Assembly (NCBI RefSeq): GCF_007752345.1
Contig: NZ_CP036299.1
Location: 2,495,001-2,559,000 of the forward strand
Direction of reading: 5' to 3'
Length of the DNA: 64,000 bases
DNA from: Planctopirus ephydatiae
Lineage (GTDB): Bacteria > Planctomycetota > Planctomycetia > Planctomycetales > Planctomycetaceae
The notes under the pieces are model-generated. The model was not told the origin of the DNA and ran no database searches. It saw nothing but the letters and a program-made list of their open reading frames with translations. Every line of letters begins with the position of its first letter. The stretch's first letter is position 1. Made by a program: the position numbers and the translations under genes. Positions 4,562-64,000 of the stretch are shown here, piece by piece.

Positions 4562-4779
4562 GGAATGATCCGCGTCGTTACGACAACCCACCCGAGAGCC
4601 AGTGGCAAGGATGCTGCTGGCTCTCCCCCTGTGTGGGCATTGTCGCAGGGCTGGCGATTTCGTCCAGAGTTTTTAGGTACTTCCTGGCACTTTGCACGTT
4701 TTCGACTCCTGCTCGATGGGTTGAGTGATACGACACACTTTCTTTCGCGCGAGGATCCCGATTTCGGAAGGGAGTGGGC

Positions 4780-21853: not shown

Positions 21854-23748
21854 TCCGGATGCAGGCCCAGACGGAACCATTTGGAGCATTCACCGAAGTC
21901 GATGTGGTGCAGCTCGCGATGTCGGGGCTGAAAGTGCAGTTCAGCTACGACCACGCGGTCCGCATGACGTTCAGTGTCTGCGAACCGCAGCATACTCGGC
22001 CCATCGAATACCACACGTTCCTCCGGGTGTGGGTCGAAGGGGAATCGATTCGTGGCAGTGCTCAATCGGCCTCGAATCCATTGTTCGAAGGGTTCGTCGA
22101 AAGCATTCAACCGGCGGCCAGCAATCGGGTCGATTATGAATGTTTCGATGCTACCTATCGGGCCAATAAGGAAGTGGTGCAGTTCAATGCTCCCTGGGAG
22201 CCTGGCAACCCTGCCGAACTCGACTGGCCTTATCCGACAGTCGGGGCGTTGCCAAGGTTGGTCTACAACTGCAAGAACGACGGCGACGATGACTACCCGC
22301 ACAGTGTGGGCCAGGACGGCACAGTGGCCAACATTCTGGCTGGGATCCTGGAGTACTCATACCATCCCCTCTGCTGGCGGAACGCAGCTCCGGGAGATGG
22401 GACGGTCGAAGGGGCGGAACTGGCCTACGTCGAAAGCGATCTCACCCCCTACGACACCAAGCCTCAGGAGAAGCTGGTCTTTCAGTCGGAGGGAATCCGT
22501 TCGTGCCTGGAACGTGTCCGCCGGTATGAACCCCGCATGCGGATGCTGTTCCAGCCCGGGGCGAGAAAATGGCGATTCATCAAGATCGATGCTTCGAGCG
22601 TGGTAACACTGCGGCTCAATGATCCGGCCGTCACTCATCCGGTGTTGTCACTCGATATGCAGAGCTCGATCGAGAACAGTGTCTCGGCGGTCCGGATCTA
22701 TGGCCCGGAAACCAACACGCTGGAGGAGTTCCGCTGGCGACTTCCAGCCGAAGGGGAAATCGATCCTCCGGCAAACACACTGGTACCGCTGGGAGATCCG
22801 GTGTTCCTACAGACGTGGGGAGATTCCTCCGGCTATCACACAGAACAGACCTGGCACCGCTGGCAGATTGTGCCACCCGTGAAACGACGCGGGGCCAAGT
22901 CGCTCCCGCAATGGGTGACTGTCCCTGCAGGCCCCTATCAGTTTCTGAATGTGAAGACTCCCACGCTGCAGATTTCCTACGACCGGGGTTCCACCTGGGT
23001 GACGGCCCAGAATGTGTGGTTTGATTTCTTGAACGGCATTGCGACGTTTCAGGGAACGCTGCCGTATTACCAGCATCCCACACCCCGACCGGGTTCCACG
23101 CAGACGATTTACGCTCCCACAGCCGTCCGGTTGATCTGGGCTCCCTATGCTCCCTGCCTCGAAGTGCGGGTACCGGCGGAAGGCTGGGAAGGGAATGCCT
23201 TCGAGCTGACCGGGCTGAAGCGAGAGTGGCAGCAGTATGACGAAGCTCTCGCCACGGGCTATGAATGGGGAACACCGGTCACCACGACTGCCCGGCGGGA
23301 GCAGTTCTTGAAGTATGCCCGGGCGCAACTCGACGAACGCAAGGACATTGTCTGGGCGGGTGGCCTGACACTCGATGGCCTCGACTTCCAGTTTGCAGGC
23401 CTCGATCGACGGGTTTCGTTCACCAGCAACAACGGAGCGGGAGGAACCACCGAGATCGGCTGGGAAGACATCAAAGCCATTGTGACTGATGTCGAGTATG
23501 ACCTCAGCGAAGGCACCACATCGCTGACGTTCTCGGGCGATTGGTTGGAGTTGCTCGGCCAGGATCCGGGGGAGCTTCGGGAACGGCTCAAGATCCGGGC
23601 GTTGGAGCAAGTGACGCTCTATGCGGGTCAGACTCTCACGTTCGATTTGTTCAAGACTCACAAGGGTTACCAGGTGAGGGAGTTGATCGGAGTGCAGAAC
23701 AACTACCGGATCGCGTACATCGATCCCGAGACAGGCAGGGAGCAATAA
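21850..23748 (+). CDS. Putative tail hub/baseplate protein
   Basis: 632 residues, overlapping the tape-measure stop by four bases (ATGA). Early segments [40 protein letters not shown] and [15 protein letters not shown] have the pattern of gp27/gpD-like hub domains. [20 protein letters not shown] and [12 protein letters not shown] near the C-terminus match the usual end of such hubs. Position after the tape measure supports a tail-tip hub. The long middle part shows no family. It ends overlapping the fibre start (TAATG). Confidence 0.6.
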
Positions 23749-26513
23749 TGCACGAAGGCCCCTTCCGAAATGATGAGCAGTGGAAGAACGACATGGAGCG
23801 ACGACTGAACCAGGTCTACGTCGATGTCGATCGCTTATGGCGTCGCCAACGGCCGCAAGGGGAAGGAATTCCTGTGGGCGGCCCCTGGCCACCAAGCGCA
23901 TTCACTGGGCCCTGGGAAGAAACGGGAACTGGAACCGATACCGGCACTGGAACAGGAACAGAAGTGCCGCCATGCGAAGATTGTACGGAGTGCTTTGAAA
24001 TCGTCTCCAGCGGGGCGACTGGCGTGATGTCGTTCACAAACGGCACCTTTTACATAACTCAAAACATGGAAATTCCGTGCCAATGGGTTGGGGTAGAAAT
24101 CAGCAGTGCGGGAATCATCGCCTTATGGCAAATGACTCGAAACCCCACCACGGGAGAACGTGGTATCACTCTGTTTGCTGGATATGGTTCGTTCACGCAA
24201 GAAGTGGCCGGATTTGTCCTGGATAATGACGATTGCTCAATTTCTGCGGAGAGTCAGACGGTCCCCGAGGTAACGACAAACCTTACAACTCTCGGATTGT
24301 TGGCCCCAACCTCAATCACACTACGACCAATTGCCTGCAGTGAGACAACGGGCAGTGATACAGGGACGGACACTGGTACCGGAACAGGAAGCGACACAGG
24401 GACTGGTTCAGACACTGGAACGGGGAGCGATTCAGGAACTGGCACTGGAACTGGTTCGGATACAGGCACCGGCTCAGATACTGGCACAGGATCAGATTCG
24501 GGAACGGGAACGGGCAGTGACACTGGAACAGGATCAGGGACCGGCTCAGATACGGGGACTGGCAGTGGCAGCGACTCAGGCACAGGTTCAGACTCGGGCA
24601 CAGGTTCGGGGACTGGCTCCGGGACGGGCAGTGACACAGGAACTGGTTCGGGATCAGATACAGGCACCGGATCAGACACGGGCACCGGGACGGGCATCGA
24701 CTGTTCCGACTTCAGCGAGCTCTCACCATGCGTGGCCTGGTACGTGGCCGATGACCTTGAGGCGGAAGACGGCGATCCCGTCACTGTCTGGCCGAACCGC
24801 ATTTCCGGGAGCAGTTCGCTCTCGATCGCGGCACCGGGAAGCCCAACCGATTACCCGACATTGATTGCCAGCGGCCCGGGTGGCCATCAGGCCGTCAACT
24901 GGCCGGGGAATGCAGGCCAGCGACACCTCAAGGCCAGCGGCTCCGACATCACGATGGATACCGTGGTGGCTGTGGTGCGAATCCTCCACGATGACACCAG
25001 CACGGCTCGCCAGATCATCTGCGGCGATGACGCCGGCACGTTCGAGCTGCACGCCTCGCCACGCACGGGGGGCAAATCCGGGGGCGAGATTGCAGGCCAT
25101 TTGACCACTCCCTCCGATTACTGCGTCATGAGCTGGAGGCGGCGACGATTCAACGTGAACGGCGTCAGCACAGGCCGGGTGATGCGGAACATCGATGACT
25201 TCCGCATCCTGGGCCGCATTCGAGGTTATCAGGCCAGTTTCTACTCAGCCGTCGATGATGACTCATTCACGAGTGCCGAACGCAACCAGGCACTCCTGCA
25301 GCTCGGCGGGGCTCGCGACTTCTCCGCCCCTTTCCGAGGCCGCATTGCCGAGGTGGTGGTGTTCAATCAGGGGCTCGATCAGGACACGCTCGAAGAAGTC
25401 GAACAGTGCCTGGCGACGAAGTACAGCATCCTCCACAACTTCCCAATTTCGCTGGCCACAAACATGCTCGGGCTCTGGACGCTCGATGAACCAGACATGT
25501 CGGGAATCAATCGCTTCGATTTGATCCATGGAAACGATCTCACCCGGGCCGATGCCTCCGATGCGATCAAGACCGCCAGCAGTGCTGAGAGCGTTCCAAA
25601 TCTGGGCTGGGTGGCTGATTTCAGTGGTGGCGATGAACTGTCCACACTGTTGGCCCGTCCGCCGGTCGAGATCCAGACACCGGCCACGTTCACGGTGTTG
25701 TGCTGGTTCCGTACGGGCAGCTCATCAAACTCGCTGCTCGTGAGCAAAGCGGCTGCCACTGGTGATCGTCGCGAGTGGGGGATGGGACTGGCAGCCGAAC
25801 CACTCTTTGAGTTCACCGATACCTGGGGGCCGCTCAATCAGCCGTTGTTTGCCACCTGGGCCAACAGTTCATCGCAAACCAGCGGACTGGCCACCGGAGC
25901 GATTGGCTACCCGGAAGGAGCAGGCGGCACTGGCACGGGTGGAGATGATCCAGCAGTCGGCTGGCAGCCACACGGTAGCGGGCTGGTCGATGCCGATCAG
26001 TGGCTGCTGGTCGGTTTCGTCTACGGCACATTTGACGGCCGGACAAAGATGATCTTTCCCGAACCGTACTACGAAGGGGGAATCTTCCTGCGGCTCAAGA
26101 TGAATCCCGTCGAAGGCCCGTATTCAGTCGGCATTGGCACCGTGGCCGATGGACCGCTTCTGGTGGGCGGCGGCAATCGCAGCAACTCGGATTTCGTGGG
26201 GCAGATCACCAAAGTGATGATCCTCAATACGGAAGTGAGCCAGACCCAGATGGAGTGGCTCTGGAACTGCGGCAAGGGCCGACCGGTCAACGATTGGTTC
26301 AACCCGAATTATTCGGCATTGCCTGAATGTGAAGCCGGTACCGGCACAGGATCGAGTACAGGCAGTTCGACAGGGAGCAGCACTGGGACTGGTTCTGATT
26401 CCGGAACCGGCAGTTCAACCGGATCGAGCACAGGATCCGGAACAGATACCGGCACAGAAACAGGCTCGGGGACTGAGGGTGAAGAAGAAGCACCAGCACC
26501 GGAGGAACCATGA
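23748..26513 (+). CDS. Repeat-rich tail fibre or adhesin with LamG-like domains
   Basis: 921 residues from the ATG at 23748; the upstream in-frame ORF is antisense-like filler over the hub gene. A short helical N-terminus ([20 protein letters not shown]) may attach to the tail. A small domain follows. Residues about 197-318 are an almost pure (T/S)GTGSD repeat. Two concanavalin/LamG-like regions follow (about 404-560 and 644-840; for example [20 protein letters not shown] and [20 protein letters not shown]). A second [10 protein letters not shown] repeat spans about 862-909, then an acidic tail. Laminin-G folds bind glycans, so receptor binding is likely. The repeats are ideal O-glycosylation or calcium-binding spacers, and a glycosyltransferase gene follows. 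Confidence 0.75.
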
Positions 26514-48943: not shown

Positions 48944-50710
48944 GTGACTGAGTCCATGACCTCCTTTTCGTCGCCTTCGATTGCCAACGGTCAACCCGGG
49001 CCCCAGTTGTTGTCTGGGCTGGCCGACGATTCATCGCCAAACTGCAAGCAGGACGTGTTTCGAGTTCTCTATCAACTGAACTGTCCGACAGACTCTGCAG
49101 ATGCTGTTGCCAGAGATATTGCACTCGAACAGACAGTCGAGGTACCAGAGTCATTGATCACGGATGAAGTGATCTGGCAGAACTTCGCTGGCCAGGTGGT
49201 CTCTGTTCGATCAGTGTCAGAGCATGTTCAGGTGGCTTCGATTGAATACCACGCTCATCTGGCGAGTGGACACTTGGCGCAGTTGATGAACCTGCTGTTT
49301 GGAAATGTCAGTCTGAAACCCGGGGTTCGATTATTAGATGTCGAGTTTCCGGAATCTTTTCTCAGTGGATTGGCTGGGCCTAAACTTGGGATTGAAGGTC
49401 TTCGATCAGCCTGCGGTGTGTGGGAACGTCCTCTGCTGGCGACCGCCATCAAGCCTAAGGGATCGTCTGTCTCTCAACTGGCACAGATCGCTGGAGAGTT
49501 TGCGGCTGGGGGCGGTGATCTCGTCAAGGATGATCACAATCTCGCAGAGAGCACGTTCGACGCCTTCAGAGCCCGTGTCGAAGCCTGCCAGCAATCCGTA
49601 CTTTCGAAGACTCCACCAGGACAAAAGTGCCTTTACTTTCCTAATCTTTCCGGGACGCTGCGCGATCTGGAACGGCAGGCAGCGTTTTGTGTGGAATCCG
49701 GCATTCGGGGTGTCCTTGTGGCCCCTATGATTGCCGGTCTCGAAACCATCCGCCATCTGTCGGAATCTTTTCCTTTGGCGATTCTGGCCCATCCGACAAT
49801 GTCGGGTTCGTTCCTGCAGGAAGGGCAGGGCCTATCGCATGCGTTCTGGCTTTCGACCATGATGCGTTTGTGTGGTTGTGATGGAACTGTGTTCCCCAAT
49901 ACGGGAGGAAGGTTTTCCTTCTCACAGGCAGATTGTCTGTCGATCGCAGACGCGGCGCGAAAACCTCTCGGAAGATTGAAGAGTTGCTTCCCGGCACCGG
50001 CGGGAGGCATGTCGTATACATCGCTTCCGGGAATGGCTCATGACTACGGCCCGGACACGATCTTTCTGGTGGGAGGCGGATTACTCGGTTACTCAGAAAA
50101 TCTCGCAGACAGCACGGCGGCATTTCGCTCCAGAATCGAAGAGCTGTTCCTCACGAATCAAGCGTCTCAGAATTCCAATCCGGATCCTCGTGGCCAATAT
50201 GTTTCTTCGTGTGAACTGCCAGCAGCGTATCCATCAGGATCTCAAAATTCTGGCATCGACGCGTATGCTCATGGAAATGAAAAGTCAGGAATCTCGTCTT
50301 CAGATTCTGCCAATTCGATCGTGACTCAACTGCTCAAGTTTCTGCCCGGGTATCGTTGGGAAAAACGTGAAGTTTCGGTTTACAAACCCAATGCGGGTCT
50401 GCCATTTGCGCATGTGGATCGACAGGAGCTGATTGGAAAGTTTGGAGAGTCAACGGCATTTGATGTGCGATACTTCGAACTGGCACCCGGTGGCTATTCG
50501 AGTCGTGAAAAGCATTTCCATACGCATGTAGTGATTCCTGTTCGCGGTCAGGGTCAACTGGAATGCCAGGGTCAGACTTTCCCTTTGCACCACCTGGATA
50601 TTGCTTACGTTCCGCCTCTGGCTGTGCATCAATTGTCCAATCCAACCAGTGAACCATTTGGTTTTCTGTGCATTGTTGATCATGATCGTGATGCACCGAT
50701 GGCTCCTTAA
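48944..50710 (+). CDS. RuBisCO-like protein fused to a C-terminal cupin
   Basis: 588 residues from GTG 48944 (ATG 48956 is possible). Residues 35-405 match the RuBisCO large-subunit fold: LLATAIKPKGSS (Lys170), GGGDLVKDDHN (Lys195, Asp197, with His198 where true RuBisCO has Glu), AHPTMSGSF at 282 and the phosphate loop FLVGGGLLG at 374. The loop-6 Lys is missing (PNTGGRFSF), so it is a form IV enolase-type protein, not a CO2 fixer. A Ser/Asn linker (405-455) leads to a cupin (505-585) with metal ligands in REKHFHTH (521-528) and His562. In Rhodospirillum rubrum a separate RuBisCO-like protein and a cupin act in succession in methylthioadenosine salvage. Confidence 0.85.
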   Translation: MTESMTSFSSPSIANGQPGPQLLSGLADDSSPNCKQDVFRVLYQLNCPTDSADAVARDIALEQTVEVPESLITDEVIWQNFAGQVVSVRSVSEHVQVASIEYHAHLASGHLAQLMNLLFGNVSLKPGVRLLDVEFPESFLSGLAGPKLGIEGLRSACGVWERPLLATAIKPKGSSVSQLAQIAGEFAAGGGDLVKDDHNLAESTFDAFRARVEACQQSVLSKTPPGQKCLYFPNLSGTLRDLERQAAFCVESGIRGVLVAPMIAGLETIRHLSESFPLAILAHPTMSGSFLQEGQGLSHAFWLSTMMRLCGCDGTVFPNTGGRFSFSQADCLSIADAARKPLGRLKSCFPAPAGGMSYTSLPGMAHDYGPDTIFLVGGGLLGYSENLADSTAAFRSRIEELFLTNQASQNSNPDPRGQYVSSCELPAAYPSGSQNSGIDAYAHGNEKSGISSSDSANSIVTQLLKFLPGYRWEKREVSVYKPNAGLPFAHVDRQELIGKFGESTAFDVRYFELAPGGYSSREKHFHTHVVIPVRGQGQLECQGQTFPLHHLDIAYVPPLAVHQLSNPTSEPFGFLCIVDHDRDAPMAP

Positions 50711-62704: not shown

Positions 62705-63793
62705 TCAGGCACTCAAGACTTTGCGGACGTTGGCTTCGGTGACCGGCTGAATAATGCCCTTTTCAGTGATGATTGCCGTAATGAGTTCCGCCGGTGCGAA
62801 ATCGAATGCCGGGTTGTAGACATTGGCACCTGCGGGGGCAAGTTGGGCACCCCCAGGATGAGTAATCTCAGTGGAGACTCGTTCTTCGATGGGAATTGAT
62901 TTCCCTTCGATAAGCGTCAGGTCGAATGTGGAGGATGGGGCTGAGACGTAAAACGGAATTTTGTGGTAATGGCATAACACCGCCACGCTGTATGTCCCAA
63001 TTTTATTGGCGGCATCGCCACGTGCGGTGATACGATCAGCCCCGACAATAGCAGCACCAATCCGGCCTTCCTTCATGACCTGCCCGGCCATGGAATCGGT
63101 GATGAGTGTGCAGGGGATTCCTCTTTGCATGAGTTCCCACATGGTCAGTCGGGCCCCCTGAAGCAGCGGGCGGGTTTCATCAGCGTAAACATGAATCCGC
63201 TTGCCAGCGGCATGCGCATGAGCCAGAGCGGCGAACGCTGTTCCATCGCCAGCGGTGGCCAATCCGCCTGTATTGCAGTGTGTCAGAATCCCAGTATTAG
63301 TAGGGAGGAGCGAGGCTCCGAATTCTCCCAGTCTGGCACACATCGCACGGTCTTCAGTTTCAATGGCCTGTGCCTCAAGAAGTAGTCTCTGCTGAAGATC
63401 GGCAGCACTGCATTGTGGGTGGTCTTTGGCCACCTGTTCCATACGCTGAATGGCCCAGAAGAGATTGACAGCCGTGGGCCGACTTTCGGCCAGGTATTTG
63501 GCCACCTTGGCCAGTTGTCGATCAAACTCTCGCCGCGAGACTTCTGCCCCTGGCTGAAAGAGTGGTTGAAGGCCGACAACGATTCCATAGGCCGCCGCCA
63601 CGCCAATGGCAGGAGCCCCGCGAACTTTGAGCTGCTTGATCGCCTCCCAGATGAGTTCCACGGTGTTCCCATCAATATGCTTCAGTTGCGTGGGCAATAC
63701 CGTCTGGTCGATCAGCTTCAGTGATCCGGTCAATTCGTCGCCTTGCCACTCCAGAGCACGATAACTGGGCAACGACACAGGATTGGACACCAT
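62705..63793 (-). CDS. mtnA: S-methyl-5-thioribose-1-phosphate isomerase
   Basis: 362 residues from the ATG at 63793; the longer reading upstream adds 68 non-homologous residues. KVRGAPAIGVAAAYGIVVGL, ILTHCNTGGLATAGDGTA with catalytic Cys173, VYADETRPLLQGARLT and AAIVGADRITARGDAANKIG with Asp253 are the family signature. The enzyme converts methylthioribose 1-phosphate to methylthioribulose 1-phosphate in methylthioadenosine salvage. Its product is the substrate of RuBisCO-like proteins in some bacteria; one such protein is encoded at 48944-50710. The last 207 bases of the window hold no further gene. Confidence 0.93.
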   Translation of the reverse strand: MVSNPVSLPSYRALEWQGDELTGSLKLIDQTVLPTQLKHIDGNTVELIWEAIKQLKVRGAPAIGVAAAYGIVVGLQPLFQPGAEVSRREFDRQLAKVAKYLAESRPTAVNLFWAIQRMEQVAKDHPQCSAADLQQRLLLEAQAIETEDRAMCARLGEFGASLLPTNTGILTHCNTGGLATAGDGTAFAALAHAHAAGKRIHVYADETRPLLQGARLTMWELMQRGIPCTLITDSMAGQVMKEGRIGAAIVGADRITARGDAANKIGTYSVAVLCHYHKIPFYVSAPSSTFDLTLIEGKSIPIEERVSTEITHPGGAQLAPAGANVYNPAFDFAPAELITAIITEKGIIQPVTEANVRKVLSA

Positions 63794-64000
63794 TGGGAAT
63801 TCTCTTTGGCTGGGCAGAACATTCGGGAAGAATCTCAAGAGTTGGTACGCTAACCGAAATGACTGGGACGTACCAACGAAGGCCACTTTCCCAGCGGTTT
63901 GAAGCTCAAAGTCGCCGATTTCAATCGAGGTCGTTCGGGACGAGACAAACTTTTTCGGAAAGAGGTGAACCCGAACCCGACAGTTGATAACATGCAAATC

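Follow-up and report, generated by a model that had tools for sequence, protein, structure and literature searches.

A RuBisCO-like protein fused to a methylsulfurylase-like cupin in planctomycetes, with a conserved Ser-x-Cys-Glu motif in its linker

We analysed a 64,000-nucleotide stretch of the Planctopirus ephydatiae contig NZ_CP036299.1 (positions 2,495,001 to 2,559,000; hereafter the window). One of its reading frames, with a GTG start and no internal stop, encodes a 588-residue protein in which a RuBisCO-like protein (RLP) domain is joined by a linker to a cupin domain (Table 1). Pfam RuBisCO_large (75.9 bits, residues 149–399) and Cupin_2 (34.8 bits, residues 510–578) both score above their cut-offs, and RuBisCO_large_N falls slightly short (18 bits against 20.7). 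The fusion named in a preliminary description of this DNA is thus a real open reading frame, and the mtnA gene reported there at a distance of 12 kb is present. The fused protein is the single RuBisCO_large match at E ≤ 0.001 in the 5.21-Mb, single-contig genome (G000). Its closest named records, from two Planctomyces sp. MAGs, are also fused and match over the full length, with best segments 96% and 66% identical. Elsewhere in the window, a block at 4774–27691 has, on visual inspection, the look of a prophage or of phage-derived DNA, with terminase-, portal-, capsid- and tape-measure-like ORFs, and a glycine/threonine-rich repeat protein is encoded inside it at 23541–26513.

Table 1 Features of the fused gene and of mtnA, in window coordinates
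Feature	Position	Strand	Basis and remarks
Fused RLP–cupin gene	48944..50710	+	ORF (stop included), Pfam; like architecture in 19 genomes
RuBisCO-like domain, aa 36–403	49049..50152	+	K170, K195, D197, H198, H283 and R323 are active-site positions
Linker, aa 404–464	50153..50335	+	Length and sequence vary, motif excepted
Linker motif S421-S-C-E-L-P426	50204..50221	+	S421, C423 and E424 invariant in 14/15 non-redundant fused rows (exception G277)
Cupin domain, aa 465–588	50336..50707	+	Likely metal ligands among E522, H524, H526, H528 and H562
mtnA, S-methyl-5-thioribose-1-phosphate isomerase	62705..63997	-	TIGR00512 418 bits, cut-off 279; 12 kb off

A survey of the phylum matched 50 of 392 genomes at 1e-10, and the architecture was read at 30 loci. 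Six of these matches are fused (G000, G315, G216, G369, G231 and G277, the last with its RLP cut by a contig end). The RLP and cupin genes lie on different contigs in G058, the RLP adjoins transketolase subunits in G037 and G051, and others have an RLP alone (in the planctomycete branch described below, 14 f20 genomes and three f18 genomes, all without a cupin match) or a cupin match alone. Within the family of G000, 18 of 170 genomes matched: 17 are fused, and G453 is cut by a contig end before the linker. G231 and G277 belong to two further planctomycete families, for 19 fused genomes in total. An assembly or frameshift artefact is ruled out, as the fusion occurs in genomes of one or two contigs (G000, G315 and G369) and in 19 genomes overall. 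For sequence comparisons we used 21 fused sequences, those of the 19 genomes and of the two named MAGs; the figures obtained for these MAGs coincide with those for G465 and G464. Across genera the fusion has no conserved neighbours except for three stray pairwise matches (G507 with G445, G369 with G277 and G445 with G231; a same-genus pair was set aside). When viral contigs were scanned for further RLPs, the pattern matched 17 times, but none of these hits was a relative.

Among solved structures the RLP domain is closest to 3qfw (E 2.1e-75), which we take to be RLP1 of Rhodopseudomonas palustris (RPA2169), and the MtnW enolases rank behind it (2zvi, 1e-43; 2oek, 1.3e-40). Residues K195, D197, H198 and R323 are identical in every one of the 17 fused rows, and the two reference rows for cupin-adjacent RLPs (3qfw and Terrarubrum) have them too; the same holds for the pair A353–G354. 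We take the aligned positions of form I RuBisCO to be K201, D203, E204 and K334. The lysine at 195 is therefore kept, while His198 replaces Glu204 and Arg323 occupies the place of the loop-6 lysine, where the form I row has Glu and Lys; the preliminary description had likewise noted the kept Lys195, His198 and the missing loop-6 lysine. The protein lacks these two residues of a bona fide RuBisCO. Because all 17 fused rows, 3qfw and Terrarubrum share His198, we read it from the alignment as a mark of the clade rather than of decay.

Maximum-likelihood analysis of 64 rows (51 of them different, several on long end branches, and the Rru_A1998 sequence absent) places the fused RLPs in a 55-row clade with support of 100/100. 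Its three branches stand in unresolved order. One joins 3qfw to the Terrarubrum RLP that adjoins a cupin gene; another holds the transketolase-linked RLPs, including two from planctomycetes; and the third consists of 48 planctomycete rows (100/99) comprising the fused ones, G058, f18 and f20, within which the fused rows form no single clade. MtnW, form I RuBisCO, an OiaX-type row and the planctomycete RLPs L032–L034 lie outside. The domain thus groups with 3qfw apart from MtnW and carries the matching active-site letters, the two marks sought for a DeepYkr-type RLP. The kinship put forward in the preliminary description stands to this extent, but transketolase-linked RLPs share the clade. Because they do so at 100/100, and because the branch order is unresolved, the tree does not single out an isomerase. 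From its kinship and residues, we infer that the RLP domain catalyses the conversion of 5-methylthioribulose 1-phosphate (MTRu-1P) to 1-methylthioxylulose 5-phosphate (MTXu-5P).

The same data bear on whether the RLP domain could instead serve conventional salvage of the Bacillus type as its enolase, MtnW. MtnW models do supply its best NCBIfam names, but the scores are far under the cut-offs (NF007095, 196.5 against 409 bits; TIGR03332, 160.5 against 513.6 bits). Moreover, the domain lies outside the MtnW clade, the MtnW row has Glu and Ser at the positions of H198 and R323 and also differs at A353, and the MtnB and MtnD partners are missing above cut-off from the 27 genomes searched (below). 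We reject an MtnW identity on score, tree and residues and consider it barely credible.

The transketolase-linked RLPs lie behind a split DXS/transketolase pair, on plasmids of Rhizobium, Mariluticola and Vibrio (L037, L038 and L041) and in G051 and G037 (L015 and L025). The Rhizobium and Mariluticola loci also carry mtnK and mtnA, and G037 and G051 have no Dxs above cut-off.

The cupin domain matches 3ibm (3.7e-29), 3jzv (5.3e-20) and 3kgz (2.9e-19) among solved structures, with the next cupin at 7.3e-8. The record of 3jzv names it Rru_A2000, the methylsulfurylase of Rhodospirillum rubrum, and 3kgz is presumably the R. palustris cupin RPA2170. The motif E522-K-H-F-H-T-H528 is followed by H562, and E522, H524, H526, H528 and H562, among which the motif places the likely metal ligands, are invariant in 14 of 14 rows; the histidine ligands noted beforehand are among them. 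Fused cupins and Rru_A2000 have in common the signature RYFE, E-[KR]-H-x-H-x-H, HQ, GF-x-C and RD-x-P, with Q in place of K/R in one fused row. In a 28-row tree, in which 4rd7 and DddK have very long branches, the separate cupins including Rru_A2000 form a clade (95/93), and the fused rows fall outside it, mostly unresolved. The ligand motif is in place, and apart from 3ibm no solved cupin matches better than Rru_A2000; the domain is thus nearest to the methylsulfurylase kind, as had been supposed. Five f23 genomes (G118, G134, G149, G164 and G178) have methylsulfurylase-like cupins (41–50% identical) and no RLP match at 1e-10.

We searched 27 genomes with pathway profiles at the model cut-offs. 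MtnD was above cut-off in none (of 14 control genomes, two score above it), and neither was MtnB, whose model is matched below cut-off by class II aldolases in 21 of the 27. The proposed absence of conventional salvage thus held for MtnB and MtnD, the two of its enzymes covered by the search. In G000, a class II aldolase was tried as MtnB or Ald2 and rejected (68 bits against the MtnB cut-off of 137, and none of the further models tried was passed); the genes around it resemble, by eye, a sugar microcompartment operon. MTA phosphorylase was above cut-off only in G231 and G058 among the 27 genomes. The TIGR01694 score in G000 is 77 against 274.85 bits, and its homologue there passes as an inosine/guanosine PNP (369 bits, cut-off 218). 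MTA nucleosidase (MTAN) was above cut-off in none of the 27; the nucleosidase-like protein of G000 is nearest HpnG (126 against 187 bits). A few kb beyond this HpnG-like phosphorylase there is a class II aldolase among microcompartment-like genes (by eye; region G000:C1:3242964-3248484, L097 and L113).

MtnA, on the other hand, was above cut-off in all 27 genomes, including five of five family members without an RLP match. Because it is present with or without an RLP, mtnA does not mark the pathway. It lies 12 kb from the fusion in G000, at a similar distance in G315, roughly 21 kb away in G231 and megabases away in G369, and in G216 it is on another contig. Proximity of mtnA, noted in the preliminary description, is therefore weak evidence; MtnA is likely the upstream enzyme, outside any operon with the fused gene. 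Of the components of a whole shunt, G000 has MtnA (418 bits) and, for use of 1-deoxyxylulose 5-phosphate (DXP), Dxr (464 bits), but it has no MTA phosphorylase above cut-off, and another route to MTR-1P is possible. G000 also has a full-length Dxs of its own (673 bits). Dxs passes in 16 of the 19 fused genomes. It does not in G445, in G454, where pieces of it lie on two contigs, or in G464, a genome 88% complete. Two draft genomes, G445 (fused) and G058 (separate RLP and cupin), pass for Dxr and not for Dxs.

In the 14 f20 genomes that carry an RLP but no cupin match (e.g. G163 and G015; L051 and L052; 83–94% complete), Dxs is below cut-off throughout (best scores 77–102 of 466 bits); Dxr passes in both of the two tested. 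All six f20 loci read have what by eye resembles a GAPDH gene close to the RLP, and four of them have two. The RLP may supply DXP in these genomes. Against a general rule of this kind, Dxs is present in the three f18 genomes whose RLP likewise comes without a cupin match. In a rival reading, the substrate of the RLP domain would be 5-deoxyribulose 1-phosphate (from 5'-deoxyadenosine), which the domain would turn directly into DXP, leaving the cupin some other role. Consistent with this are the f20 genomes and the range of MtnA, which excerpts of PMC10986504 name as acting on 5-deoxyribose-1P too. Such a route needs no methylsulfurylase signature, however, and yet the fused cupin keeps one; we regard it as very unlikely for the fused protein.

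We conclude instead that the fused protein is probably (at roughly 75%) a bifunctional MTRu-1P isomerase and MTXu-5P methylsulfurylase in a methionine salvage of the MTA-isoprenoid-shunt type. The sequences display two domains, their kinship to a known pair, conserved active-site letters and a conserved fusion. Both activities would be expected in this one protein because of its kinship to, and the residues it shares with, the pairs of R. rubrum and R. palustris. For R. palustris, excerpts of PMC5893883 describe an rlp1/cupin pair that performs the steps from MTRu-1P through MTXu-5P to DXP in vivo; for R. rubrum, PMC4958253 assigns the same steps to Rru_A1998 (RLP) and Rru_A2000 (cupin). In the proposed sequence, MtnA would form MTRu-1P and the RLP domain would isomerise it to MTXu-5P. 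At the metal-binding cupin a thiol would then accept the methylthio group, leaving DXP for the MEP pathway, and methanethiol would go back to methionine. Our guess is that the linker keeps both active sites near each other, with a part for its conserved Cys-Glu; the channelling of the two steps put forward in the preliminary description is likewise conjectural.

In favour of the bifunctional reading we count the 3qfw-nearest RLP, the active-site letters it shares with 3qfw and Terrarubrum, the adjacent gene pair of Terrarubrum, the Rru_A2000-type cupin, the lack of MtnD and MtnB above cut-off, the kept fusion and the presence of MtnA, Dxs and Dxr in G000. Against it stand the clade shared with transketolase-linked RLPs, the RLPs of cupin-free f20 and f18 genomes, the missing MTA phosphorylase, the sub-cut-off aldolases, the lack of kept neighbours, the failure of mtnA to track the RLP and the genome's own Dxs. 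The preliminary description had proposed the same two-step shunt. Of the three results it named as contrary (an RLP grouped with a clade of different function, a cupin lacking affinity to the methylsulfurylases and a complete conventional pathway using another enolase), none arose, the third as judged by MtnB and MtnD; mtnA proximity and MTA phosphorylase lent it no support.

That description had also called the linker disordered. It is indeed variable, spanning 33 to 67 aligned residues with a median pairwise identity of 0.15 (motif excluded) compared to 0.53 in the domains, but it is not featureless: an S-x-C-E motif at residues 421–424 had been overlooked. Of the 21 fused sequences 20 carry the motif, usually in the form SACELP; G277, although fused, has KAQE at this position. 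After removal of six near-identical rows, 15 fused rows remained for the motif alignment, and in the 14 without G277 S421, C423 and E424 are the sole invariant residues between positions 378 and 472. In 2000 shuffles per linker, which ignore shared descent, a like three-letter pattern arose in at most 7 of 15 rows, compared to 14 of 15 observed. Among ORFs of at least 80 residues in the loci compared, [SA]C[ED][LIM]P is confined to fused proteins. L004, a distant Peptococcaceae RLP, has ACEDP close to its C-terminus, which we take as chance. In the four separate cupins examined, no [SA]CE precedes the domain, and S-x-C-E was not seen in the unfused relatives compared, the same-clade unfused RLPs ending short of the motif position.

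This motif could serve in docking or could provide a thiol of the protein's own. A docking or closing element with a structural cysteine, packing against either domain or against a partner protein, would suit its position 11–21 residues past the aligned RLP end and about 20 or more ahead of the cupin. RuBisCO C-terminal tails close the active site, which we count toward this role, whereas the early end and missing motif of the same-clade unfused RLPs count against it. We give docking slightly less than an even chance.

Within the bifunctional explanation, C423 could alternatively be the thiol itself, swinging into the cupin site and becoming Cys-S-S-CH3. Thioredoxin or a small thiol would then reduce it, and glutathione would be unneeded. 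A thiol is required at this step, and excerpts of PMC4334135 report that glutathione accepts the methylthio group in R. rubrum, with a glutathione–methylthiol adduct. The conservation of the motif, the shuffles and the invariance of S421, C423 and E424 are in keeping with a built-in thiol, as is the distribution of PF02955: it exceeds 170 bits only in G445, G042 and G299 of the 27 genomes, and thus in G445 alone of 17 fused genomes. However, PF02955 passes its low cut-off (23 bits) in 25 of 27 genomes and in all 17 fused ones (16 of them at 41–73 bits). Among these 16 only the G000 protein was typed, an ATP-grasp nearest MptN that reaches 103 of 299 and 109 of 272 bits with glutathione synthase models. 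The G445 protein passes the glutathione synthetase model, placing GshB and motif in one genome, and G058, with separate genes and no motif, reaches 54 bits at best. Also against this role are the motif-free fusion of G277, the shared descent that the shuffles disregard and AlphaFold models with mean pLDDT of 46.5 (four sequences) and 35.7 (linker–cupin piece, three sequences), in which the cysteine is not placeable. Docking is the likelier role and the tethered thiol, which we hold unlikely, the bolder one. Bolder still would be a glutathione-independent, one-polypeptide shunt in planctomycetes, in which the linker cysteine as swinging thiol at the cupin makes isomerisation, dethiomethylation and reductant delivery one machine and in which RLP routes would be the only visible DXP source, in place of Dxs, in some relatives (G445, G058 and the RLP-only f20 genomes). 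We regard this combination as distinctly unlikely.

If the bifunctional reading is true, the MTA-isoprenoid shunt, established in R. rubrum and R. palustris, also occurs in planctomycetes, where the fusion allows it to be expressed and assayed as a single protein. The fusion itself argues for two domains acting in sequence, and the conserved linker cysteine offers a direct handle on the thiol source of the methylsulfurylase. With Dxs missing in several RLP-bearing planctomycetes, the suggestion in excerpts of PMC10663253 that the shunt may replace Dxs becomes testable there. The separate RLP and cupin enzymes were known already; S-x-C-E in the fused linker is new here. As the preliminary description had supposed, no RLP–cupin fusion is named in the titles and abstract openings of our full-text search results, although a mention in subscription journals is possible.

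Several known systems are comparable. RPA2169/RPA2170 of R. palustris (PMC5893883) presumably supplies the nearest solved structure (3qfw), with equal active-site letters, but its genes are separate and the linker motif is absent. In Terrarubrum flagellatum (NZ_CP091853.1) the RLP and cupin genes lie 36 bases apart in the order of the fusion; they are unfused, and their products are 37% (RLP) and 35% (cupin) identical to the fused protein. The RLPs beside a split transketolase share the 100/100 RLP clade, but a thiamine-enzyme pair stands in place of the cupin. Rru_A1998 and Rru_A2000 of R. rubrum are of the same two domain kinds, and Rru_A2000 has the same cupin signature; there, however, two genes are used and the thiol is glutathione (excerpts of PMC4334135), whereas the planctomycete protein is one polypeptide with an S-x-C-E linker. 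Finally, Tetrahymena MtnBD (PMC3698126; mentioned in PMC6302742) is also a methionine-salvage fusion, but it joins other enzymes, those of the conventional oxygen-dependent branch.
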